DNA of 42,564 nt from positions 1 through 42,564 of the forward strand of contig JAHEBR010000002.1 in NCBI GenBank assembly GCA_024642185.1. The letters are read 5' to 3'. Positions 16,283-29,870 of this stretch are shown piece by piece. Origin of the DNA: Marivivens sp. Its GTDB lineage: Bacteria > Pseudomonadota > Alphaproteobacteria > Rhodobacterales > Rhodobacteraceae. The notes beneath the pieces are model-generated. The model had not been told where the DNA came from, did no database searches, and saw nothing but the letters and a program-made list of their open reading frames with translations. A program made the position numbers and the translations under genes. The stretch's first letter is position 1, and each line of letters starts with the position of its first letter.

Positions 16283-16708
16283 ATGCAAATACGCCCGATC
16301 ACAGATAAATACGCAGTCTCGCCGCAGATTGATCCCGCCGATGTTCCGGCGATCAAGGCGGCGGGATTTACCACGGTCATCTGCAACCGCCCCGATGCCG
16401 AGGTTCCGATGGAGCTTCAGTCGGCCGTGATGCGCATTGCGGTGGAGGCGGCGGGGCTGACCTTCGTCGACATCCCCGTAAGCCATCAGACGCTCAACCT
16501 CGGCATGGTCGAGGCGCAATTCGCAGCGATCGACGCTTCGGCAGGACCGGTTTTGGCCTACTGCGCCTCGGGCAATCGCTGTTCGATCGTCTGGAGCCTT
16601 GGGCAGGCAGGCAAATTGCCGGTGGACGAGATTATCGCGACCGTAGCGCGGGCCGGATACGATCAGTCGGCCCTTCGGCCACAGCTGGAAGCGCTGTCGC
16701 GTCGTTAG
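16283..16708 (+). CDS. TIGR01244/DUF442 family sulfur transferase-phosphatase (rhodanese-like loop)
   Basis: ITDKYAVSPQIDPADVPAIKAAGFTTVICNRPDAE...GPVLAYCASGNRCSIVW (C-x4-R loop). Confidence 0.92.
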   Translation: MQIRPITDKYAVSPQIDPADVPAIKAAGFTTVICNRPDAEVPMELQSAVMRIAVEAAGLTFVDIPVSHQTLNLGMVEAQFAAIDASAGPVLAYCASGNRCSIVWSLGQAGKLPVDEIIATVARAGYDQSALRPQLEALSRR

Positions 16709-17688
16709 TCATCAAAGCCTTGGATCGGCGTTGGCTCTCCCAACGGGTCTTCGACTGTGTCGTCCGGCAGCCGCATCCGAGGGGCGTTGAAGTGTCCGCC
16801 TTCTTCCATCGCGATCTCGGGCCTTGGTTCGACCCGGACCGCCCGCATCCCTCCCGATTGCCCAAGCCGGCAATTTGCGATGCAGCTACCGTCTGATGCT
16901 TCAAGGCTGACAGCGCTGATATCCAGCTCCAAAAGCGGCAGCACCTGACCGACCTTCAACGTTTCCGCAATTGCCAGCGGCAACCGCAGGCGGCCAAGGA
17001 CCGCCTCGACCTCGGTCGGCGTCTGCATGACAACTTCGTTCATCTGTACCGGCCAGCCTGCACGGCCGCGACGCTCGGGGTGATCTTCTGGCGCGGCAAT
17101 GGCCACCGGTAAAGCAAAGGCGATTTCGCCCTGACGCCCGCCGGCCCCAAGATCGAGTGTCATGCGAAAGATTTTGTAGGCGCGCTCCGGCAATGCCAGG
17201 CGGAGCGCCATCACACCGGAAAACTTGCGCCCGACGGCGATCGTAGGAAACCAGTCCCCCGGCGAAGAGGTGCCGCAGTCGCGCTGAATGGCCGTCATGA
17301 GCCCCGTCAGGAACGGCTCGACTAGGGCGGCGTCAACTTCTGTCGGACTTCGGACTTCGGCGGTGACAGGTCTGATCCGGCCTGTGGTCATCATCTCCCC
17401 GGCAGCCGCCAAGACTTCAGGATCAGCGATGACGAGGCCGACCAGCCCTTCGGGCGCAACGAGTCCGATAAGGCAATGCCCCTTGCCCAGAGGAGAAACG
17501 AGATCGTCCAGCCCGCTTTGAGCGATCTCGACGCCGATCACGTCGATCTCTGCGCCAAAAACATCCCGCGAGGCCCGCGCGACTGCCATCCGCAAAGCGC
17601 GCATTGGCGTTTGCGAGCCGCCGCCTTCGGCCTGCGCAGGTTTTGCAAGCTTGCGCGCCAGTATTCCTGCACTTGCCGTGGACATCAC
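16705..17688 (-). CDS. FliM/FliN (SpoA)-family protein, stand-alone
   Basis: C-terminal SpoA-like segment (VQMNEVVMQTPTEVEAVLGRLRLPLAIAETLKVGQVLPL...SCIANCRLGQSGGMRAVRV); N-terminal CheC-like region. Confidence 0.75.
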   Translation of the reverse strand: MMSTASAGILARKLAKPAQAEGGGSQTPMRALRMAVARASRDVFGAEIDVIGVEIAQSGLDDLVSPLGKGHCLIGLVAPEGLVGLVIADPEVLAAAGEMMTTGRIRPVTAEVRSPTEVDAALVEPFLTGLMTAIQRDCGTSSPGDWFPTIAVGRKFSGVMALRLALPERAYKIFRMTLDLGAGGRQGEIAFALPVAIAAPEDHPERRGRAGWPVQMNEVVMQTPTEVEAVLGRLRLPLAIAETLKVGQVLPLLELDISAVSLEASDGSCIANCRLGQSGGMRAVRVEPRPEIAMEEGGHFNAPRMRLPDDTVEDPLGEPTPIQGFDD

Positions 17689-17751: not shown

Positions 17752-20412
17752 CTATGGCAGGATCACCCGAAACGCTGCGCCGCCTTGTCCCGGCAAATAC
17801 GAAATCGACCCGCCGAGCCGGATCATGATCTCGCGACAGATCGCAAGGCCAAGCCCGGCACCGCCCGCTTTGCGGTGATCAGAAAGGCGCGAAAACTTTT
17901 CGAAGATCATTTCCTGATGTTCCTTGCCGATACCCGCACCATTGTCGATGAAATCAACCGCCATCCTGCCACCCGCCTTGCGCACCACAATCCTCAGCAC
18001 GGGCTCGGCCGCAGTGCAGTATTTCTGGGCATTGGCGATGAGATTGATGAACACCTGCGTCAAGCGGTCTAGGTCCGTGTCCAGTGCAATCGCTTCCTCT
18101 GCCCGCTTGCGCTGGATCTTGATCGCGCTTTCGCCAACGACAGAGGCCGCGATAGCCCGGTCGATCACATCGCGCAGGTGCCCTTCTTGCCGGCTCAACG
18201 TGCCCTGCCCGTTTTCAAGAACATTGAGATCGAGAAGATCGTCCAGAAGCCGGGTGAGCCGCACCGCCTCGTCATGGATAATACCCGCGTGTCGCGCCTG
18301 CATTTCCGCAGAAGCTCCACCTTCGCGCAGAATGTCCGAGAAGGATCGGATCGAGGTCATTGGCGTTCTCAGTTCATGGCTGATCTGACCTAGGAAGGCG
18401 TCTTTCTGGATCGACAGGGCGGTCAGCTTTTCATTCGCCTCCTGCAATTGCCGCGCGGTACGTTCCTGTTCGGCGGACTTGGCTTCAAGACGAGAGGAAT
18501 ACTCCATGATCTGAGCGGTCTCGTCCGCCACGGCGATCAGGTCTTCCACCGAAACGCTGGCCCCCTGCACCAGTTGCCCCACCATCGCGTGAGCCGTTGC
18601 CGCCCCCACCGAGCCGGCAAGCTCGCGCTCGAGATCCTCAACGAACTTGGGTGTCACTTCGGGCAGATACCCCTCCTTCCCTTGAAGCCGGGCCTCGCGC
18701 TGAAAAATGTCCTGTGCCTCGGTCGAGCCCAATATCCTTTGGGCCATTACCAAGAGGTCTTCGGCCTCGGCGCCACCATGCGTCCACGACCGGGTGCCGG
18801 TGGAATGTTCGAAAACGTCGACGAACTGCGCCCCCTGAAGCCGCTCGAGCGGGAGAGGAAATGTCAGGACCGAACCGATCACAAACGCGGCCGAATTGAG
18901 CAGCATCGACCACAAGACCGCATGAATGACGGGATCGAGCCCGGCAAACCCAAAGAGCGCCTGGGGGCGGAGCCAAGCCAAGCCAAACGGCCCCTGTTCC
19001 AAAACGATCTGCGGAATGACCTCACCTGCCCCGAACGAAGGCAAGAACAAGGACCAGGCCCAAATCGCAAATCCCGTGATCAGCCCTGCAGCGGCGCCCC
19101 AGCGCGTGGCTCCGCGCCAATAGAGGCCGCCAATCATCGACGGAAGGATCTGCACCACGCCGGTAAAAGAGATCAGGCCAATCGCCGCCAGAGCCTCACC
19201 GCCGCCTGAGAGGCGATAGTAGACATAGCCAAGCAGCAGGACGCCACCAATGGACAGTCGACGCGCCAAGAGCACCGCATAGCGCACATCGCCCGACATC
19301 ATAGCCCCGCCGGCCCGGCTCGACAGCCAGATCGGCACGACGATGTGGTTCGACACCATCGTCGAGAGCGCGATGGTGGCAACGATGACCATTGAGGTCG
19401 CTGAGGAAAACCCGCCAAGGAAGGACAGGATGGCAAGGCCCGAGCGCCCTTCCGCAAGCGGCACGGTCAGAACGAACAGGTCGGGGTTTGATCCGTCCGG
19501 CAAAAGATCGAGGCCGACCACCGCGATCGGCACGACGAACAGGCTCATGACCATCAAATAAAGCGGAAAGGCCCAGCTGGCGGTTGAGAGCCGGCTTTCG
19601 TCATCGTTCTCGACCACGAGAACCTGAAACATCCGTGGCAGGCAAAGGAACGCCGCGCCGGACAGAAAGATCAGACCGAACCACCTTCCGCCCGGCGGCG
19701 ACCATTCCGCGATCTTCGACGCATCGATCAAATCGAGAGTTGGCCCTACCCCGCCGGCCACCCCCCAGACGACGAAAACCCCGACCGCCACAAGCGCGCA
19801 GAGCTTGACCACCGCTTCGACGGCGATCGCCATGACGATGCCATTGTGGCGCTCGTTGGCGTCAAGGTTCCGTGTTCCGAAAATCACGGTGAAAAGCGTC
19901 AGGCCGACCGCCACCCAAAGTGCTGCCGAGGCCAGCTCCGGTGCGCCCCAGTTCTGACCAGAGGCATTGGCGAACACCGCTGTCGAAAGCGTCACGGACT
20001 GAAGCTGAAGGGCGATATAGGGGGTCGCCGCGACCACCGCGATCAGGGTGACGATCACGCCCAGTGCTGTCGATTTGCCAAACCGAGACGAGATGAGATC
20101 GGCGATAGAGGTGATGCGCTGGCTGCGGCCGATCCGGACAAGTTTGCGCAGGACCCACCACCAGCCGATCATCACAATGGTCGGGCCCAGATAGATCGTG
20201 ATGAATTCGAGGCCCGAGCGAGCCGCATAGCCGACGGCCCCGTAGAAGGTCCAAGCCGTGCAATAGATCGAAAGCGAAAGAGTATAGACCAGCGACGACC
20301 GAAGCCACTTGCCCCTCCCGCGTTCGGCCTGCCTTTCGGCGACAAAGGCGATGATGAAGAGAAAGGCCACATAGGCCAGCGAGACAGCGACCAGAAGATT
20401 GAAGGAGACCAT
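17752..20412 (-). CDS. Sodium:solute symporter-type sensor histidine kinase (CbrA/MxtR/CrbS-like: SSS, STAC-like linker, HisKA, HATPase)
   Basis: N-terminal about 13 TM SLC5-like domain, linker WTHGGAEAEDLLVMAQRILGSTEAQDIFQREA, H-box QISHELRTPMTSIRSFSDIL, ATPase motifs INLIANAQKYC, DNGAGIG, GAGLGLAICREIM. Confidence 0.94.
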   Translation of the reverse strand: MVSFNLLVAVSLAYVAFLFIIAFVAERQAERGRGKWLRSSLVYTLSLSIYCTAWTFYGAVGYAARSGLEFITIYLGPTIVMIGWWWVLRKLVRIGRSQRITSIADLISSRFGKSTALGVIVTLIAVVAATPYIALQLQSVTLSTAVFANASGQNWGAPELASAALWVAVGLTLFTVIFGTRNLDANERHNGIVMAIAVEAVVKLCALVAVGVFVVWGVAGGVGPTLDLIDASKIAEWSPPGGRWFGLIFLSGAAFLCLPRMFQVLVVENDDESRLSTASWAFPLYLMVMSLFVVPIAVVGLDLLPDGSNPDLFVLTVPLAEGRSGLAILSFLGGFSSATSMVIVATIALSTMVSNHIVVPIWLSSRAGGAMMSGDVRYAVLLARRLSIGGVLLLGYVYYRLSGGGEALAAIGLISFTGVVQILPSMIGGLYWRGATRWGAAAGLITGFAIWAWSLFLPSFGAGEVIPQIVLEQGPFGLAWLRPQALFGFAGLDPVIHAVLWSMLLNSAAFVIGSVLTFPLPLERLQGAQFVDVFEHSTGTRSWTHGGAEAEDLLVMAQRILGSTEAQDIFQREARLQGKEGYLPEVTPKFVEDLERELAGSVGAATAHAMVGQLVQGASVSVEDLIAVADETAQIMEYSSRLEAKSAEQERTARQLQEANEKLTALSIQKDAFLGQISHELRTPMTSIRSFSDILREGGASAEMQARHAGIIHDEAVRLTRLLDDLLDLNVLENGQGTLSRQEGHLRDVIDRAIAASVVGESAIKIQRKRAEEAIALDTDLDRLTQVFINLIANAQKYCTAAEPVLRIVVRKAGGRMAVDFIDNGAGIGKEHQEMIFEKFSRLSDHRKAGGAGLGLAICREIMIRLGGSISYLPGQGGAAFRVILP

Positions 20413-20684
20413 CAGCGCTCCTCTTTGCCGGAGTCGCTTTCAGGTTCCAGCTTGAGCCTGCGCGATATGATCGCGGCGACAGCGATGAGCCCTGACCAGA
20501 TTACAAAGAGAAAGATCATGACGTCCGACGTGCCGCGGCCGTCGTTGCCGACCAGTTTCCAGATCAGCGGAAGGGCAAAGAGAACCGCCGCCAGAACCGG
20601 CAGGAGACGCGCCACATCCTGAAGTCTGCGCTGCCGATAGGAAGCCCGCTCGAGAAAGACCAGCTTTTTGCCTCGCGTCGCCAT
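20412..20684 (-). CDS. Small two-TM membrane protein, kinase accessory
   Basis: 90 aa; stop overlaps the kinase start by a few bases; TM segments LLPVLAAVLFALPLIW and VMIFLFVIWSGLIAVAAII. Confidence 0.8.
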   Translation of the reverse strand: MATRGKKLVFLERASYRQRRLQDVARLLPVLAAVLFALPLIWKLVGNDGRGTSDVMIFLFVIWSGLIAVAAIISRRLKLEPESDSGKEER

Positions 20685-20687
20685 TGG

Positions 20688-21056
20688 CTAGGTCGTCACG
20701 AGAGCACGGACGTTTTCGATCACCTCGGCATTTGAAAAGGGCTTGGTGATGAAACGGTTGACCCCGAGTTTCTCGGCAAGTTCCCGGTCGCGGGTTTGTC
20801 CCCTCGCGGTCAGCATCAAAACCGGCAGGGCCTGCATCTCGGGATCGGCCCGAAGATCGCGCAGAATGTCAAAGCCGCTCTTTCCGGGTAGCATGACGTC
20901 GAGGATCACCAAATCCGGCGGCGTGGCGCGGATCCGCTCGTTGGCGTTTACGCCATCGGAATGGGTGTGCACCGTCCAGCCATCCCGCGAGAGGATGAAA
21001 CTGAGCGCCTCGATAATATTGGGTTCGTCCTCGATCACCAGGACACGTTTGCCCAT
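20688..21056 (-). CDS. Single-domain response regulator (receiver only)
   Basis: MGKRVLVIEDEPNI..., phospho-acceptor VILDVMLPG, LTARG, TKPF; 122 aa with no output domain. Confidence 0.93.
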   Translation of the reverse strand: MGKRVLVIEDEPNIIEALSFILSRDGWTVHTHSDGVNANERIRATPPDLVILDVMLPGKSGFDILRDLRADPEMQALPVLMLTARGQTRDRELAEKLGVNRFITKPFSNAEVIENVRALVTT

Positions 21057-21146
21057 AGCCCATGCCCCTCCCAAGGCTCTGTGCGATCCGGTCGTTGCCG
21101 CCGACTATCACGGCAAAGCCGTGGGCTGTCAAAGCCCCAAGGGCGA

Positions 21147-22442
21147 TCAGGCCAGAAGGCTCGGCTCGCGCCGGGCCGGACAGGCAGGCCGCGGGCAGAT
21201 GCGGCAGCCGCCCCCCGCATCAAGCGCGGCTGTTTCGCCGGCAGGCGCCGCCTGCACCAGCATCACCGCCTCGACTGGCGAGAGCCCGTCAAACCGCAAA
21301 GGGCCGAGCGGCCCGGCAATTGCGTGGCAGAGAAAACGGCGCCCACCCTCGCCCGGCAGGGCGACGATCGCGCGGATCGGCTGGCCGGGGCGCGACAGCG
21401 CCTGAAACAGCGGCCATACAGGACAGGCCGCCACAGCACGTGGCAGGCCAAAGCCCTCGATCGTCTTGAGGCGCGTCACAGCGCCCGCCCCATCGCAAGA
21501 GGCAAAACCAAAGGCCGGATGCGCCGGGCGCTCAGGAAGGCTCGATAGGCGCCGCAGGATGGCGGCCGGTCCGACCCCAAACATTTCCGCCAGAAGCGCC
21601 GGGTCGTGGCGCCTTTCGATCGCGGCGGCCTCGAAAGCGCCGAGAGGCATGGCCTGAGCATCATCCCGATAAACGCCGAGGCGGCCCCGCAGAAGGACTT
21701 CTGCCGCCGGTCCTGTCAGCGCCGCCGCAACGACCAACTCCTCAACCACTGCATCGGAGTGGGCCGGTCCTTCCAGATCAGCGATGTGATGCCCGTGCCT
21801 GTCGAAATAGGCCTCAACCTCTTCAACCGGAGACAACGCCATAGCCCCGCCATCGGCGGGGGCTTCGAGATAGCCGACAAGGGCGCGGCTGCTGTCGGCA
21901 AGACGCTGGCTGTCGTTATAGATGTTGCGATGAAATCGTTCCTGCCAGTCGCGGTCCAGAACCTCGCCGCCAACCAGAATCGAGGAGGTGGACCGGATTG
22001 ATGTCACTGCAGAAATTACCTCGTGCAACGATGTTGAAAGCTGCGGATCATGCGCCATCCTGTCCGTAAGCGATTTGACCCTGGCTTCAAGCCGGGCAAT
22101 CTGCGCCGCCTGATCCGTCACAAGGCCAGCCCAGCCGGGAAAGCGCCCTGCGAACTCTTCTGTTCGGTTGATTTCAGCATCAGCCGCAGGTCGCGTCGCG
22201 GCAGCTCCGCGCAAATCCTGGATCAACGCGGTTTCCGCGCCTTCGGAAAGCTGCGTCGGATCAAGGCCGAGGGCGCGGGCAAGATCGTTAAGAACGCGGC
22301 CACCGATTCTGCGCCGGTTGTGCTCGATAAGATTGAGATAGGACGCAGATATTCCGGCGGCCTTGGCCAGATCGGCCTGCCGCATCGCAGCATCCAGCCT
22401 GCGTTCTCGAATTCGGGAGCCTGTGAGTTGCCGCTGGGTCAC
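21147..22442 (-). CDS. XRE-family regulator (ScfR/RamB-like, DUF2083-type C terminus) with internal HisKA-like segment
   Basis: HTH GSRIRERRLDAAMRQADLAKAAGISASYLNLIEHNRRRIGGRVLNDLARAL; C-terminal CRICPRPACPARREP; internal LHEVISAVTSIRSTSSIL. GTG start. Confidence 0.88.
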   Translation of the reverse strand: MTQRQLTGSRIRERRLDAAMRQADLAKAAGISASYLNLIEHNRRRIGGRVLNDLARALGLDPTQLSEGAETALIQDLRGAAATRPAADAEINRTEEFAGRFPGWAGLVTDQAAQIARLEARVKSLTDRMAHDPQLSTSLHEVISAVTSIRSTSSILVGGEVLDRDWQERFHRNIYNDSQRLADSSRALVGYLEAPADGGAMALSPVEEVEAYFDRHGHHIADLEGPAHSDAVVEELVVAAALTGPAAEVLLRGRLGVYRDDAQAMPLGAFEAAAIERRHDPALLAEMFGVGPAAILRRLSSLPERPAHPAFGFASCDGAGAVTRLKTIEGFGLPRAVAACPVWPLFQALSRPGQPIRAIVALPGEGGRRFLCHAIAGPLGPLRFDGLSPVEAVMLVQAAPAGETAALDAGGGCRICPRPACPARREPSLLA

Positions 22443-22499: not shown

Positions 22500-22540
22500 C
22501 TTTACAAACTACACTCAGAATTTGTGTAAGTCTTTACAAA
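22500..22540. promoter_or_regulatory. Candidate operator with three CTTTACAAA-type half-sites
   Basis: CTTTACAAA (22500-22508), inverted TTTGTGTAAG (22521-22530), CTTTACAAA (22532-22540) in the divergent XRE/ABC intergenic region. Confidence 0.5.
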
Positions 22541-22667
22541 ATTTTTATTTCTCTTGAGGGACTTGTTGCGAATTTTTCGAACCGCGTCCGATAATGACGG
22601 CAGCATTGTAAAATGCGTGCAGTCGGAGTGTGGAGGCTTCGGCAGCTATCATGAAAGGGAGGGACTC

Positions 22668-24014
22668 ATGTCCAAAATGAACTTCTCACGTCGTGGCGTG
22701 CTGAAGACAGGTGCCGTAACCGGCGCCGGTCTTGCGCTTCCGACTATCTTCACGTCCTCGGCTTCGGCCTATACCAACGAACCGACCGGCTCCTCGGTCA
22801 AGTTCGGCTTCAACGTTCCCCAGACCGGCCCCTACGCCGAAGAGGGCCTCGACGAGCTTCGCGCCTTTGAGCTCGCCGTTCAGCACCTCAATGGCGAGGG
22901 CGACGGCGGCATGCTCAACACGATGTCGTCGAAAACCCTCGGCGGCAACGGCGTTCTCGGCAAGAAGGTCGAGTTCGTCACCGGCGACACCCAGACAAAA
23001 TCTGACGTGGCGCGGGCATCGGCTCAGTCGATGATCCAGAAAGACGGCGTTGTCATGGTTTCCGGCGGTTCATCGTCGGGTGTGGCCGTTGCGGTTCAGA
23101 GCCTTTGCCAGGAAGCCGGCATTATCTTCATGGCCGCGCTGACCCACTCGAACGACACCACGGGCAAGGACCGGAAAGCCAACGGCTTCCGCTACTTCTT
23201 CAACGCCTATATGTCGGGCGCTGCTATCGCTCCGGTGCTCTCGAGCGCCTATGGCAACGAGCGCCGCGCCTACCACCTGACCGCCGACTACACCTGGGGC
23301 TGGACCCAGCAGGAATCGATCGCGGCCTCGACCGAAGCCCTTGGTTGGGAAACCGTCTCCAACGTGCTGACCCCGGTCGGCGCCGGCGACTTCTCGTCCT
23401 ATATCGCTCCGGTGATCAACTCGGGCGCGGATGTTCTGATCCTGAACCACTACGGCGGAGACATGGTCAACTCGCTCAGCCAGGCTGTTCAGTTTGGTCT
23501 GCGCGACAAGATGGTGAACGGCAAGCAGTTCGAGATCATCGTTCCGCTCTACTCGGAGCTGATGGCTGCGGGCGCTGGCTCCAACATTCAGGGTGTCTAT
23601 GGCACCATGAACTGGAACTGGCAGCTGCAGGATCCGGGCACCCAGGCTTTCGTCAAGTCGTTTGGCGAAAAGTATGGCCGTCCGCCGTCAGGCGCCGCCC
23701 ACACCGCCTATGTGCAGACCCTGCTCTATGCGGATGCGGCCACCCGTGCGGGCACCTTCGAGCCCTGCCAGATCGGGGCCGCCCTTGAGGGCTTCGAGTT
23801 CGACGGCATGGGTATCGGCCCGACAACCTACCGCGCCGAAGACCACCAGTGCTTCAAGGACGTGCTCGTCATGAAGGGCAAAGACAGCCCGGCCAACGAA
23901 TACGATACCCTTGAGATCGTCGAAGTGACCCCGCGCGCTCAGGTCGAGTATGCGGCCGATCACCCGATGTTCGGTGGTGCCGAGGCCAGCCTCGGCGAAT
24001 GCAACAACGGCTAA
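22668..24014 (+). CDS. Branched-chain amino acid-type ABC transporter substrate-binding protein, Tat-like signal
   Basis: NFSRRGVLKTGAVTGAGLALPTIFTSSASA leader; Peripla_BP_6-type VKFGFNVPQTGPYAEEGLDELRAFELAVQHLN. Confidence 0.92.
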   Translation: MSKMNFSRRGVLKTGAVTGAGLALPTIFTSSASAYTNEPTGSSVKFGFNVPQTGPYAEEGLDELRAFELAVQHLNGEGDGGMLNTMSSKTLGGNGVLGKKVEFVTGDTQTKSDVARASAQSMIQKDGVVMVSGGSSSGVAVAVQSLCQEAGIIFMAALTHSNDTTGKDRKANGFRYFFNAYMSGAAIAPVLSSAYGNERRAYHLTADYTWGWTQQESIAASTEALGWETVSNVLTPVGAGDFSSYIAPVINSGADVLILNHYGGDMVNSLSQAVQFGLRDKMVNGKQFEIIVPLYSELMAAGAGSNIQGVYGTMNWNWQLQDPGTQAFVKSFGEKYGRPPSGAAHTAYVQTLLYADAATRAGTFEPCQIGAALEGFEFDGMGIGPTTYRAEDHQCFKDVLVMKGKDSPANEYDTLEIVEVTPRAQVEYAADHPMFGGAEASLGECNNG

Positions 24015-24055: not shown

Positions 24056-24110
24056 CACAATTGGCCCTGCCTTGCGCGGGCCGTCTGATTTCCAAGGACA
24101 GGGTGGGACC

Positions 24111-25130
24111 ATGGACGCTTTATTCCTCCAGATCCTCAACGGGCTTGAAAAAGGTGGTGCCTATGCGCTGATCGCGATGGGCCTTACGCTTATTTTCGGC
24201 ACGCTGGGCGTGGTCAATTTCGCGCACGGCGCGCTTTTCATGATCGGCGCCTTCGTGGCCGTCACGATGCAGCGCATCTTTAACATCAGCCTCGAGATCG
24301 TCGACGCGACCCAGAAGGATTTTCTGGGCAATCCGCTCAAGGTCAAGGTCCCCTATGTGATCGAATGGTTTGGCGAGGGCTTCGGCGGCTTCCTGATTGA
24401 TTGGTCGGTGCCTCTGGCGATCTTGCTCGCCATCCCTGTCATGATGCTGGTTGGTTTCGTGATGGAGCGCGGCCTGATCAAGCATTTCTACAAGCGTCCG
24501 CACGCCGACCAGATCCTCGTAACCTTTGGCCTCGCCATCGTTCTTCAGGAAATCGTCAAGTATTTCTTCGGCGCCAACCCGATCCCGACCCCCGCGCCGT
24601 CCGACTATCGCGGCACGATTGATATGGCTTTCTTCGGCCTGAACCTCTCCTACCCTATCTGGCGCCTGATCTACTTCTTCTTCTCGGCCGCCGTGATCGC
24701 CGCTGTCTTTGCCTTCCTACAATTCACAACTTTCGGCATGGTTGTCCGCGCGGGCATGGCCGACCGCGAGACCGTGGGCCTTCTCGGCATCGACATCGAC
24801 CGCCGCTTTACCCTGATGTTCGGCATTGCTGCCGCTGTCGCGGGCCTTGCGGGTGTGATGTATACGCCAATCCTGTCGCCCAACTATCATATGGGAATGG
24901 ACTTCCTCGTGCTGTCGTTCGTTGTCGTTGTTGTCGGCGGCATGGGCTCCTTGTCGGGAGCCGTGGCAGCGGGATTCCTTTTGGGCATCCTCCAGGCCTT
25001 TGCCTCGATGAACGAGGTAAAGGACATCATTCCCGGTATCGACCAGATCATCATCTATCTCGTCGCCATCGTCATTCTGCTTACCCGTCCGCGTGGCCTT
25101 CTGGGCCGCAAGGGCGTGATGGAGGACTAG
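24111..25130 (+). CDS. LivH-type ABC permease
   Basis: MDALFLQILNGLEKGGAYALIAMGLTLIFGTLGVVNFAHGALFMIGAF. Confidence 0.95.
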   Translation: MDALFLQILNGLEKGGAYALIAMGLTLIFGTLGVVNFAHGALFMIGAFVAVTMQRIFNISLEIVDATQKDFLGNPLKVKVPYVIEWFGEGFGGFLIDWSVPLAILLAIPVMMLVGFVMERGLIKHFYKRPHADQILVTFGLAIVLQEIVKYFFGANPIPTPAPSDYRGTIDMAFFGLNLSYPIWRLIYFFFSAAVIAAVFAFLQFTTFGMVVRAGMADRETVGLLGIDIDRRFTLMFGIAAAVAGLAGVMYTPILSPNYHMGMDFLVLSFVVVVVGGMGSLSGAVAAGFLLGILQAFASMNEVKDIIPGIDQIIIYLVAIVILLTRPRGLLGRKGVMED

Positions 25131-25133
25131 TCC

Positions 25134-26324
25134 ATGCTCGGCCTGTCGCAAAAAGACACCCGCTTTCTCTTCATCGTCATTGCACTGACCCTGCTGACGC
25201 CCTTCCTTCTCAACCCCTTCCCGACCGACTCGGCGCTGGCGCAGTTCAACGCGGGCTATCCGGCCCTGATGCAGCGTTTTGCGATCTATGGCCTCATGGC
25301 GATCGGGTTCAACATCCTCTTCGGCCTGACCGGATACCTCTCCTTCGGCCACGCCGCCTTCCTCGGCGTCGGCTCCTACGCTGCGGTGTGGATGTTCAAG
25401 CTTCTGTCGATGAACGTTTTGCCGGCTATCATCATGGCGACGCTGCTGGCCGGCCTCTTTGCGCTTGTCATCGGCTTCATCTCACTGCGGCGCTCGGGCA
25501 TCTACTTCTCGATCCTGACGCTCGCATTTGCCGAGATGTCCTATCGTCTGGCCTATTCGGTCTTTACACCGGTCACCAACGGCGAATCGGGTTTGCAGCT
25601 TGGCCTCAAGGATCCGCGCATCCTTGACGCGCCGCTGACATCGGCCAGCCTGCCCGTGCCGGGCCTCTTCGGGCTTAAGATGAACTCGAGCTGGACCCTC
25701 GACCTTGGCCCCTGGGATTTCACCTTCAACGTCGGCTACTATTTCTGCGCCGTGGTGGCGATCCTCGGCTTCTACCTCAGCCTGAGAATCTTCCGCTCGC
25801 CCTTTGGCCTTATGCTGCGGGCGATCAAATCGAACCAGAACCGCCTCAACTATACTGGCCTCAACTCACGCCCCTACACTCTTGCAGCATTCGTGATCTC
25901 GGGGATGTATGCCGGCCTCGCCGGTGGCCTCCTTGCGGCAATGGATCCGCTGGTGGGGGCCGAAAGGATGCAGTGGACCGCGTCTGGCGAGGTCGTCTTG
26001 ATGACCATTGTGGGCGGCGTCGGCACGCTGATGGGCCCTGTCCTTGGCGCGGGCTTCATCAAATATGCCGAGAACATCTTCTCGAAGATCAACGAGAGCA
26101 TCCTTCACAGCTGGTTCAGCTGGCTGCCGGACGGGCTTGAGGATGCCGTTGTCTGGATCTTCGCCCGCTTCGTCGGCGAAGGCTGGCACCTGACGCTGGG
26201 CCTGATGTTCATGGTCATCGTGATCGCCCTGCCCGGCGGCCTCGTCGAAGGGGGGCAGCGCATCGCCCGCTTCTTGCGCCGCAAGTCGGACGACAGCGCC
26301 GCCACCACAACGCCCGCCGAATAG
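25134..26324 (+). CDS. LivM-type ABC permease
   Basis: [37 protein letters not shown]. Confidence 0.95.
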
Positions 26325-26334
26325 GGAGAAACCC

Positions 26335-27093
26335 ATGAGCATTCTCGAAGTCAAAGGCGTCAACAAGCGCTTCGGCGGCCTTCAGGCGCTTGGAAACGTG
26401 AACCTCAGCGTGAAGGAAGACACCTGCCACGCGATCATCGGCCCCAATGGCGCCGGCAAATCGACCCTTCTGAACTGCCTCGTCGGCAAGCTGATCCCCG
26501 ACAGCGGCTCGGTCGTCTTCGACGGCCAGTCGGTCCTCGGCCGCAAGCCGCACGAGATCAACCAGATGGGCATCAGCCGGGTATTCCAGACACCGGAAAT
26601 CTTTGGCGATCTCACGGTCATCGAAAACGTGATGATCCCCTGCTTTGCCAAGCGCGACGGCTCATTCCGGATGCACGCCTATGAGGCGGTTCATCAGGAG
26701 AAGGGGATCATTGAGCAGGCCGAGGCAATTCTTGCCGACGTCAATATGCTCGACAAGCGGCACATGCACGCCGCTTCGCTCAGCCGTGGCGACAAGCGCC
26801 GCCTCGAGATGGCCATGTGCCTCGTGCAGGAGCCGCGCCTTCTTTTGCTCGACGAGCCGACCGCCGGTATGGCGCGTGCCGATACCAACAACACGATCGA
26901 GTTGCTCAAGGAGATCCGCAAGAAGCGTAGGATCACCATGGCGATCATCGAACACGACATGCATGTGGTGTTCAGCCTCGCCGAAAGGATCACCGTTCTG
27001 GCGCAGGGCACGCCTCTGGTGGAAGACACTCCGGAGAACATCAAGGGCCATCCGAAGGTGCGCGAAGCGTATCTTGGTGAAGCTCAAGTCTAG
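26335..27093 (+). CDS. LivG-type ABC ATP-binding protein
   Basis: Walker A IGPNGAGKSTLLN, signature LSRGDKRRLEMAM, Walker B LLLLDEPTAGM. Confidence 0.95.
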   Translation: MSILEVKGVNKRFGGLQALGNVNLSVKEDTCHAIIGPNGAGKSTLLNCLVGKLIPDSGSVVFDGQSVLGRKPHEINQMGISRVFQTPEIFGDLTVIENVMIPCFAKRDGSFRMHAYEAVHQEKGIIEQAEAILADVNMLDKRHMHAASLSRGDKRRLEMAMCLVQEPRLLLLDEPTAGMARADTNNTIELLKEIRKKRRITMAIIEHDMHVVFSLAERITVLAQGTPLVEDTPENIKGHPKVREAYLGEAQV

Positions 27094-27104
27094 GGAAGAA
27101 TGCT

Positions 27105-27878
27105 ATGACCCACGTTGAGCAAAAGAGCATTGACGGCCGCTTCGACAAAGACCGCAACATGGCGGCCACCGCGCCCAAATTCCTGTCTGTCTGGGATATC
27201 CGCGCCTACTATGGCGAGAGCTATATCGTTCAGGGCGTGAGCTTTGATATCCATGAGGGCGAAATCCTTGCCCTTCTCGGCCGCAATGGCGCCGGCAAGA
27301 CCTCGACCCTACGCGCCATCGCCCGGCTCGATGATCCCGCGCTCAAGCACGGCGAGATCTGGCTCGATCACAAACCGCTGCACGAGATGAAGGCCTTTCA
27401 GGCCGCACAGGCCGGGATCGCGCTCGTTCCCGAAGACAGGCGCATCATCCCGGGCCTCACGGTCGAGGAAAACCTGCAACTGGCACAGATCGCCCCGCCC
27501 AAGGGCTGGTCACTCGCGCGCATCTATGAGCTCTTCCCGCGCCTGGGCGAGCGCCGCAAGCAGGAAGGCACGACCCTGTCGGGCGGCGAACAGCAGATGT
27601 TGGCCATCGCCCGCGCCCTGGCCCGCGACATCAAGGTTCTGCTCCTTGACGAGCCCTACGAGGGCCTCGCCCCGGTGATCGTTCAGGAAATCGCCAAGAC
27701 CCTCGCCATTATCCGCGACCAAGGCATTACCACGATCATCGTCGAGCAAAACGCCGTTGCCGCGCTGAAACTCGCTGATCGCGCCGTGATCCTCGACACC
27801 GGAACCGTGGTTTATGACGGCTCGGCACAGGAAGTGCTTGATGACGAGGCGCTGAGAGCGAAATATCTCGCCATCTGA
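27105..27878 (+). CDS. LivF-type ABC ATP-binding protein
   Basis: Walker A LGRNGAGKTSTLRAI, LSGGEQQMLAIARAL, LLLDEPYEGLAP. Start may be internal (MAATAPKFLSVWDIRAYYG). Confidence 0.95.
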   Translation: MTHVEQKSIDGRFDKDRNMAATAPKFLSVWDIRAYYGESYIVQGVSFDIHEGEILALLGRNGAGKTSTLRAIARLDDPALKHGEIWLDHKPLHEMKAFQAAQAGIALVPEDRRIIPGLTVEENLQLAQIAPPKGWSLARIYELFPRLGERRKQEGTTLSGGEQQMLAIARALARDIKVLLLDEPYEGLAPVIVQEIAKTLAIIRDQGITTIIVEQNAVAALKLADRAVILDTGTVVYDGSAQEVLDDEALRAKYLAI

Positions 27879-27910: not shown

Positions 27911-27935
27911 CACCCACCAAGAATTGGGGAAAGCC

Positions 27936-29870
27936 ATGACCAAACTCTATCCGCCCTCCGCCGATTTCGCGGCCAACGCCCATATCGACAAAGCCAAGTA
28001 TGACGAGATGTATGCGGCCTCGGTAGCCGACCCAGACAAGTTCTGGGCCGAACACGGCAAGCGGATCGACTGGATCAAGCCCTTCTCCAAGGTCAAGAAC
28101 ACAACCTTCGCCTATCCCGATGTCTCGATCAAATGGTTCGAGGACGGCGAGCTTAACGTCGCGGCCAACTGCATCGACCGTCACCTCGAGACCCGCGGCG
28201 ACCAGATCGCGATCATCTGGGAAGCGGACGATCCCAATATCTCCAAGCACATCACCTATCTCGAGCTTTCCGAGCAGGTGAACAAATTCGCCAACGTCCT
28301 GAAATCCCAAGGCGTCAAAAAAGGCGATCGCGTCATCCTCTATATGCCGATGATCCCCGAGGCCGCCTACGCCATGCTAGCCTGCGCCCGCGTCGGCGCG
28401 GTGCATTCCATCGTGTTCGCCGGCTTCTCGCCCGACGCGCTCGCCAGCCGCATCTCCGACTGCAGCGCCTCGCTCGTCATCACCGCCGATGAGGCCCCGC
28501 GCGGCGGCAAGAACACACCGCTGAAGGTCAACGTCGACAAGGCCATGGCGATCTGCGGCGATGTGAAAACCCTCGTGGTCGAGCGCACCGGCGGTAGCGT
28601 GCCGATGAAAGAAGGGCGCGACACCTATCTCCACACGGTCATGGCCCATGCCTCGACCGATTGCCCGCCCGAGGTGGTGAACGCCGAAGACCCGCTCTTT
28701 ATCCTCTACACCTCCGGCTCAACCGGCAAACCCAAGGGCGTCTTGCATACCTCGGGCGGCTATCTCGTCTGGGCCTCGATGACCCACGAGATGGTGTTCG
28801 ACTATCACGACGGCGATATCTACTGGTGCACCGCCGACGTGGGCTGGGTCACTGGCCACAGCTATATCGTCTATGGCCCGCTCGCCAACGGCGCGACGAC
28901 GCTGATGTTCGAAGGCGTGCCCTCCTACCCCGATTTCGGTCGCTTCTGGGCGGTTTGCGAGAAGCACAAGGTCAACCAGTTCTACACCGCCCCCACCGCG
29001 ATCCGCGCGCTCATGGCGCATGGGCCCGACTGGGTAAACAAGCACGACCTCTCGTCGCTCAAAGTCCTTGGCACCGTGGGCGAGCCGATCAACCCCGAGG
29101 CCTGGAACTGGTATAACGACGTGGTCGGCAAAGGCACCTGCCCGATCGTCGACACCTGGTGGCAGACCGAAACCGGCGGCCACCTGCTGACCCCCCTCCC
29201 CGGCGCCATCGCCACCAAGCCGGGCTCGGCCACCGTGCCCTTCTTCGGCGTCCAGCCGGTGATCCTCGATCCCACCACGGGCCAGGAAATCACCGAGACC
29301 GCCGCCGAAGGCGTCCTGTGCATGAAAGACAGCTGGCCCGGCCAGATGCGCTCGGTTTTCGGCGATCACGAGCGCTTCGTGAAAACCTATTTCTCCGACT
29401 ACAAGGGCTATTACTTCTCCGGCGACGGCTGCCGCCGCGACGAAGACGGCTACTACTGGATCACCGGCCGCGTCGATGACGTGATCAACGTCTCCGGCCA
29501 CCGGATGGGCACCGCCGAGGTCGAAAGCGCGCTTGTCGCCCACCCCAAGGTCTCCGAATCTGCCGTCGTCGGATTCCCGCACGAGATCAAGGGCCAAGGC
29601 ATCTACTGCTACGTCACCCTGATGGATGGCGAGGAATATACCGACGCGCTGAAAACCGAGCTGCGCAACTGGGTCCGCAAGGAAATCGGCCCTATCGCCT
29701 CGCCCGATGTAATCCAGTGGGCGCCGGGCCTGCCGAAAACCCGCTCGGGCAAGATCATGCGCCGTATCCTGCGCAAGATCGCCGAAAACGATTTCGGCGC
29801 TTTGGGCGATACCTCGACCCTCGCCGACCCTTCCGTGGTCGACGACCTGATCGCAAACCGCGGCAAGTAA
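27936..29870 (+). CDS. acs: Acetyl-CoA synthetase (AMP-forming)
   Basis: [80 protein letters not shown]. Confidence 0.96.

Follow-up and report, generated by a model that had tools for sequence, protein, structure and literature searches.

An alphaproteobacterial ScfR-family regulator that appears to have acquired the DHp domain of its operon's SLC5-type sensor kinase

Response regulators of a single domain occur widely, often with no known output. Receivers are met at a histidine by ChpT and Spo0B, relay proteins that have a DHp-like four-helix bundle but neither a working ATPase domain nor a DNA-binding domain. Control of a transcription regulator through histidine is seen in the PRD-containing proteins LicT and MtlR, which are phosphorylated by the PTS. 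Sensor kinases with an SLC5-type transporter N-terminus and linkage to acs form a further group that includes CrbS/CrbR and other SLC5/STAC kinases (RpuS/R, CbrA/B). CrbR activates acs directly (PMC5715377), and the RpuS/R response regulator is itself a DNA-binding protein of the LuxR family (PMC9100948). Finally, the ScfR transcription factors (RamB, PccR, MccR/PrpR) combine an HTH_3 domain with a ScfRs domain that bears conserved cysteines and has a PrpR-like fold. Acyl-CoA sensing has been demonstrated for PrpR and RamB (PMC6765138, PMC10370305), and RamB of Paracoccus denitrificans was shown to bind two almost identical boxes separated by 18 bp (PMC10370305).

The locus described here lies within 42,564 nt of DNA from Marivivens sp., the whole of which is referred to as the window. 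The regulator gene and its parts are as follows.

21147..22442, minus strand: XRE/ScfR-family regulator of 431 aa, GTG start (Pfam HTH_3 and ScfRs PF09856)
22251..22412, minus strand: HTH_3 domain, regulator residues 11-64 (Pfam HTH_3, E=7.7e-11)
21864..22058, minus strand: DHp/HisKA-like insert, regulator residues 129-193 (helices 133-157 and 164-193)
22023..22025, minus strand: codon of regulator His140, counterpart of the kinase phospho-acceptor His (His in 109/114)
21156..21512, minus strand: ScfRs C-terminal domain, regulator residues 311-429 (PF09856, E=3.8e-12; four conserved Cys)

In common with the ScfR factors, this protein has the HTH_3 and ScfRs domains, the conserved cysteines and a PrpR-like fold and, as in RamB, a candidate two-box direct-repeat operator with a 32-bp period. 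By contrast with those factors, a DHp insert separates the HTH from the M78-like domain, and the gene is linked to those of a kinase and a receiver. The Marivivens protein resembles ChpT and Spo0B in the DHp likeness, the lack of an ATPase domain and the proposed meeting with a receiver at a His, and differs from them in being a transcription factor; the PRD of LicT and MtlR is unrelated to DHp, and in the Marivivens regulator the phosphoryl donor would be a two-component receiver. Pden_1785 was noted as clustered with a two-component system, without study there (PMC10370305), and is probably of the same DHp-bearing type, as judged from that description alone. Within the literature covered, which was partial and had most subscription journals outside it, no description of a DHp domain in a ScfR/XRE factor was found.

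The regulator runs from the HTH through a 65-residue helical hairpin and a degenerate M78-like region to a ScfR/PrpR-like C-terminus. Pfam placed HTH_3 at the N-terminus and ScfRs (PF09856) at the C-terminus of 32/32 family members, and the AlphaFold model of the regulator (mean pLDDT 71.5) gave a Foldseek match to M. tuberculosis PrpR (6cz6, E 1.5e-9). In an alignment of orthologues the conserved cysteines of the C-terminal domain are 340, 413, 416 and 421; by analogy with PrpR, these four are presumed to be Fe-S ligands and, after PrpR and RamB, the ScfR domain may add acyl-CoA sensing to the regulator. Pfam matched the M78/IrrE-like middle domain in 24 of the 32 members, the Marivivens regulator reaching E=0.16 over the last third only; this region (21504-21827) is decayed in the Marivivens regulator and intact in deep relatives such as L109 (E=4.5e-18). 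Given that a Pfam scan of the regulator protein found no HATPase_c domain, the regulator is not a histidine kinase.

Three genes follow that of the regulator on the minus strand, and the gene order of the locus is conserved in the named Rhodobacteraceae loci.

20688..21074, minus strand: single-domain response regulator of 128 aa, receiver only (Pfam Response_reg, E=9.2e-26, residues 11-122)
20412..20684, minus strand: small hydrophobic protein of 90 aa between the receiver and kinase genes (position conserved; without a Pfam family)
17752..20412, minus strand: sensor kinase with an SLC5 (sodium/solute symporter)-type N-terminus (HisKA 670-734, HATPase_c 780-886)
18202..18414, minus strand: kinase DHp domain with H679 (codon 18378-18376), relative of the regulator insert

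Orthologues of the receiver conserve the receiver residues and a short tail, and an output domain is absent from them. Residues 4-462 of the kinase match a solved histidine kinase chain (10ed_A, E=1.2e-66), and its Paracoccus orthologue is annotated as a sodium:solute symporter; the SLC5 domain may have the 90-aa hydrophobic protein as its partner. The locus shares with CrbS/CrbR and the other SLC5/STAC systems the kinase type and the acs linkage. It departs from CrbS/CrbR and RpuS/R in that no DNA-binding response regulator is found: the receiver is bare, and DNA binding falls to a separate ScfR protein with a DHp. Acetate as the kinase ligand is a guess from the likeness to CrbS and from acs. 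Next after the kinase gene comes one (16705-17688) whose product ends in a FliM/FliN domain; Paracoccus ferrooxidans and most of the Rhodobacteraceae loci keep it in this place.

On the other side of the regulator, a divergent cluster begins with an ABC-transporter gene and has acs as its last listed member.

22500..22508, plus strand: candidate operator half, CTTTACAAA box 1
22532..22540, plus strand: candidate operator half, CTTTACAAA box 2
22554..24014, plus strand: UrtA-like ABC-transporter substrate-binding protein with a Tat signal (probable start ATG 22668)
24072..26324, plus strand: two UrtB/UrtC/LivHM-like ABC permeases (24072-25130 and 25134-26324)
26335..27878, plus strand: two UrtD/UrtE/LivGF-like ABC ATPases (26335-27093 and 27105-27878)
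27924..29870, plus strand: acetyl-CoA synthetase, acs (TIGR02188, 1024.9 bits, cut-off 724.95)

Where the flanking sequence was long enough, the regulator almost always lies divergent to the gene of the substrate-binding protein, across families; this pair is also kept in five loci (L094, L096, L107, L108 and L123) that lack adjacent receiver and kinase genes. Between the regulator and the ABC/acs operon lies a TTTACAAA direct repeat with a 32-bp period. The word CTTTACAAA occurs exactly twice in the window, at 22500 and 22532, both within this intergenic region. In 24 of 37 orthologous intergenic regions a 32-bp period separates the two members of the best-matching TTTACAAA-like pair; the scan consensus was drawn from the Marivivens window, which is itself no independent evidence. 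Given that the 80-bp RamB probe (PMC10370305) implies 14-bp boxes, the RamB operator would have the same 32-bp period.

The preliminary description of this DNA had likened regulator residues 131-193 (21864-22052), with the histidine at residue 140, to the kinase phosphotransfer helices. These positions are correct on the minus strand, the codon of His140 being 22025-22023, the HE, TSIRS, S-x-IL, Q-x-R and RL motifs are all found in the segment as quoted, and the segment and the protein do lack, respectively, the H-box proline and an ATPase domain. Local alignment of the whole regulator with the whole operon kinase scored 74, the maximum in 500 shuffles being 65. A Pfam HisKA scan of the Marivivens regulator gave no listing at E<=1, and NCBIfam returned only PnpS for the segment (residues 140-182, E=0.15). 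Taken alone, the Marivivens sequence renders the regulator-kinase similarity suggestive only.

Once families are included, the comparisons place the similarity far beyond chance. A segment profile built from 35 Rhodobacteraceae sequences (alignment A2) was searched over ten whole genomes and returned the regulator first and the SLC5-type kinase second in 10/10 (E 8e-4 to 8e-7), no other kinase or protein in these genomes falling below E 0.1. The kinase was still the second match in a genome (G015) where it lies 155 kb from the regulator. Against Pfam HisKA (cut-off 26.9), the deep orthologue L109 scored 38.7-42.8 bits (E=1e-9 at 38.7) and the deep members L110/G549 scored 31.9-35.4 bits; E<=0.01 was reached by 11 of the 32 family members. 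The deepest members have a segment that is close in reading to that of the kinase, as in L109, where THELRTFLTSIRSFSEILHD of the regulator compares with SHELRTPLTSVRSFGEILHD of its kinase. The HisKA assignment first made for this segment thus held in deep orthologues, which lie above the curated cut-off, and failed for the Marivivens protein itself, which is counted as HisKA/DHp (PF00512) through orthology, its own sequence being without a Pfam match.

A segment profile from a diverse set matched HK853 chains in the PDB (E 7e-6). The isolated segment was predicted to form a two-helix hairpin (pLDDT 81), for which the best Foldseek matches, all weak (E>=0.05), were the DHp domains of HK853, VC2136, DivL and SrrB and the LvrB hybrid regulator. 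Protein A domains, which topped a PDB profile search, were rejected as a repeat artefact, their score being the sum of five repeats of ~8 bits each. The combined similarity evidence shows homology between regulator residues 129-193 and the DHp (HisKA) domain in the operon's SLC5-type kinase.

Ordinary ScfRs (G639, G345, G350) follow the family profile as far as position 140 and rejoin it at about 208, and in place of the insert they have 7-9 residues; such paralogues, which lack a DHp segment, are found in the same and in other genomes. The insert is thus a clean insertion of ~65 residues between the HTH and the M78-like domain. A tree built from 93 DHp segments, with few columns and no known root, places all 39 segments from regulators in one clade (100/99), and this clade lies inside a fork (97/90) whose other members are all SLC5-type kinases. 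The remaining kinases, drawn from two test genomes, branch outside the fork. The regulator DHp of L109 scored 171 with that of its own kinase and at most 89 with the other kinases of the genome, the corresponding scores for L110 being 130 and at most 68. The tree indicates that the regulators acquired a kinase DHp once; it is the insertion, the root not being known, that points to transfer from kinase to regulator.

The proposal that a kinase helix pair was transplanted into a transcription factor is accordingly supported by the profile searches, the tree and the insertion relative to paralogues, and is backed also by the predicted hairpin with kinase DHp domains as its best PDB fold matches. 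The signal in the Marivivens regulator alone is weak and helical hairpins match many folds, as chance or convergent helical similarity would have it. Such an origin now has next to no probability and may be regarded as already refuted by the profile, tree and Pfam evidence in relatives and by the absence of the segment from paralogues.

The residues kept and lost in the insert were counted in 114 non-redundant regulators and 55 kinases. The column of H140, whose loss from orthologues had been named beforehand as a possible refutation, holds His in 109 regulators, Tyr in 2, Gln in 2 and Phe in 1, a count that does not refute the proposal; given the five with Y, Q or F (L039, L191, L107, L108 and L112), the histidine appears not to be indispensable everywhere. 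In HisKA kinases the acid at +1 assists autophosphorylation, and Thr or Asn at +4 assists dephosphorylation of the receiver. Position +4 is T, S or N in 113/114 regulators. Position +1 is acidic in only 49/114, whereas the kinases have Glu there wherever rows align, and the H-box proline at +5 is found in 0/114 regulators versus 55/55 kinases. Ranked by entropy among the 431 positions in a diverse set of 40 sequences, His140 is 36th, +1 is 317th and +5 is 395th. Loss of +1 with retention of His and +4 is as expected for an ATPase-less domain that still meets a phosphorylated receiver.

The same counts bear on whether the insert does no more than dimerise the regulator and is unconnected with phosphate signalling. 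ScfRs need dimerisation, DHp is a good module for it, and some members lack the histidine. That reading is nonetheless improbable, since the surface-exposed His, the +4 residue and the TSIRS-like residues belong to the better-kept positions of the protein while others drift, and an SLC5 kinase is present in nearly every genome that bears the insert.

Receiver-contact columns, which we take from the HK853-RR468 complex, match the operon kinase in 52% of pairs versus 31% elsewhere (permutation p=0.019). In the distal half of helix 2 (+43 to +50), regulator-kinase identity is only 3-32%, which speaks against pairing of the two proteins. Such pairing had been raised initially, the insert acting as a decoy or forming a heterodimer with the kinase DHp and so modulating the kinase directly, and the common origin of the two DHp segments is in its favour. 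It is now less favoured and must be judged very improbable: the His-proximal, receiver-facing part is kept and distal helix 2 has diverged almost completely, and the kinase is a membrane protein while the regulator binds DNA.

The most likely partner of the regulator, which the preliminary description had not named, is the single-domain response regulator encoded between the regulator and kinase genes. This receiver lacks an output domain, and the kinase and regulator genes that flank it encode DHp segments of shared descent; docking of the receiver on both segments would be the simplest wiring. We consider it probable that a ScfR-type DNA-binding protein acquired, once, the DHp of its kinase and that the receiver, docking there, links the kinase to transcription. 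The input port of the regulator appears to have been copied from the docking domain of the receiver's own kinase, so that a receiver able to recognise the one would already fit the other. Copying of a docking domain would be a simple route for wiring a new regulator into an existing pathway.

For this docking arrangement we infer four steps: sensing, docking, dimer change and operator binding. The kinase would sense a substrate, acetate or a related acid by analogy with CrbS, and phosphorylate the stand-alone receiver. The output-less receiver would then dock on the DHp insert of the regulator through the surface that it also uses on the kinase. Docking would rearrange the dimer helices that link the HTH to the sensor domain, perhaps with phosphoryl transfer to His140 or with hydrolysis there assisted by Ser/Thr at +4; the phosphoryl group may also stay on the receiver. 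This rearrangement, together with acyl-CoA sensing by the ScfR domain, would set binding to the TTTACAAA repeat and hence expression of the ABC/acs operon.

A stronger version of the docking explanation is a phosphohistidine switch, in which phosphate passes from the kinase His to the receiver Asp and on to His140 and the phosphorylated regulator is either active or inactive. Phosphate acceptance at His140 is possible in that the sequence is compatible with it: the histidine persists in 109/114 despite strong drift of its neighbours, +4 is T/S/N in 113/114, and the receiver residues are intact. Natural Y/Q/F variants and the loss of the acidic +1 in over half of the regulators count against a switch, and the histidine may instead be kept for receiver binding or for phosphatase geometry. 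The switch is tentatively entertained, at somewhat less than an even chance. Marginally more tentative is the general proposition that the terminal output of a two-component system, widespread in alphaproteobacteria, may be a separate transcription factor phosphorylated on the His of a DHp copied from the kinase, with the receiver shuttling between homologous sites.

Retention of T/S/N at +4, a position tied to phosphatase action in HisKA kinases, is also consistent with an insert that lets the regulator dephosphorylate or titrate the receiver and so exert feedback on the signal instead of taking it in. We regard this as unlikely, since, with no output known for the receiver itself, a sink would deprive the pathway of its effector, and since the DHp sits within a DNA-binding protein adjoining its target operon.

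The docking arrangement would bear on how many Alphaproteobacteria link an SLC5-type sensor to acetate activation. Within the order, a regulator match was obtained in 292 of the 296 genomes sampled, most matches being strong and full-length. Across 385 genomes of the class, regulators of the insert-bearing type and the SLC5 kinase recur in many alphaproteobacterial families, and genomes with such a regulator nearly always yield the kinase as well. In a sample of the phylum, the best full-length matches spanning the insert were all from Alphaproteobacteria, and the matches listed from other classes cover the C-terminal part of the regulator only. Two DHp-bearing ScfR-like open frames per genome were observed in L211 and L212 (G1047 and G1048), so that at least one duplication of the module is possible.

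In five loci (L114, L115, L116, L121 and L122) an SLC5-type kinase with a single-domain receiver nearby has no adjoining DHp-bearing regulator; for L121 (G659), one is present elsewhere in the genome. In lineages with the kinase and a bare receiver but without the DHp regulator, the receiver must have other outputs. Replacement of the absent regulator by a DNA-binding response regulator was not supported, several such lineages having a single-domain receiver too. L114 also carries a LuxR-type response regulator.

Other DHp-like segments were observed apart from the regulators. Small stand-alone proteins with little beyond a HisKA domain of the SLC5-kinase type are encoded at L201:1293-1859, L202:1357-1743, L203:4851-5345, L204:1094-1648 and L205:1216-1644. 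These open frames have 129-189 aa, four lie above the Pfam cut-off and some lack the histidine; they are possible free DHp docking proteins or sinks. A His-less DHp-like segment occurs in L109:3-1316, a gene near the kinase gene, and in L218:3-2045 (EGLRAPVANLRAAVETL in L218). Both proteins end in a 3'-5' exonuclease (RNase_T) domain, one of them with a PAS domain, and the segment appears to be a further borrowed or decayed kinase core.
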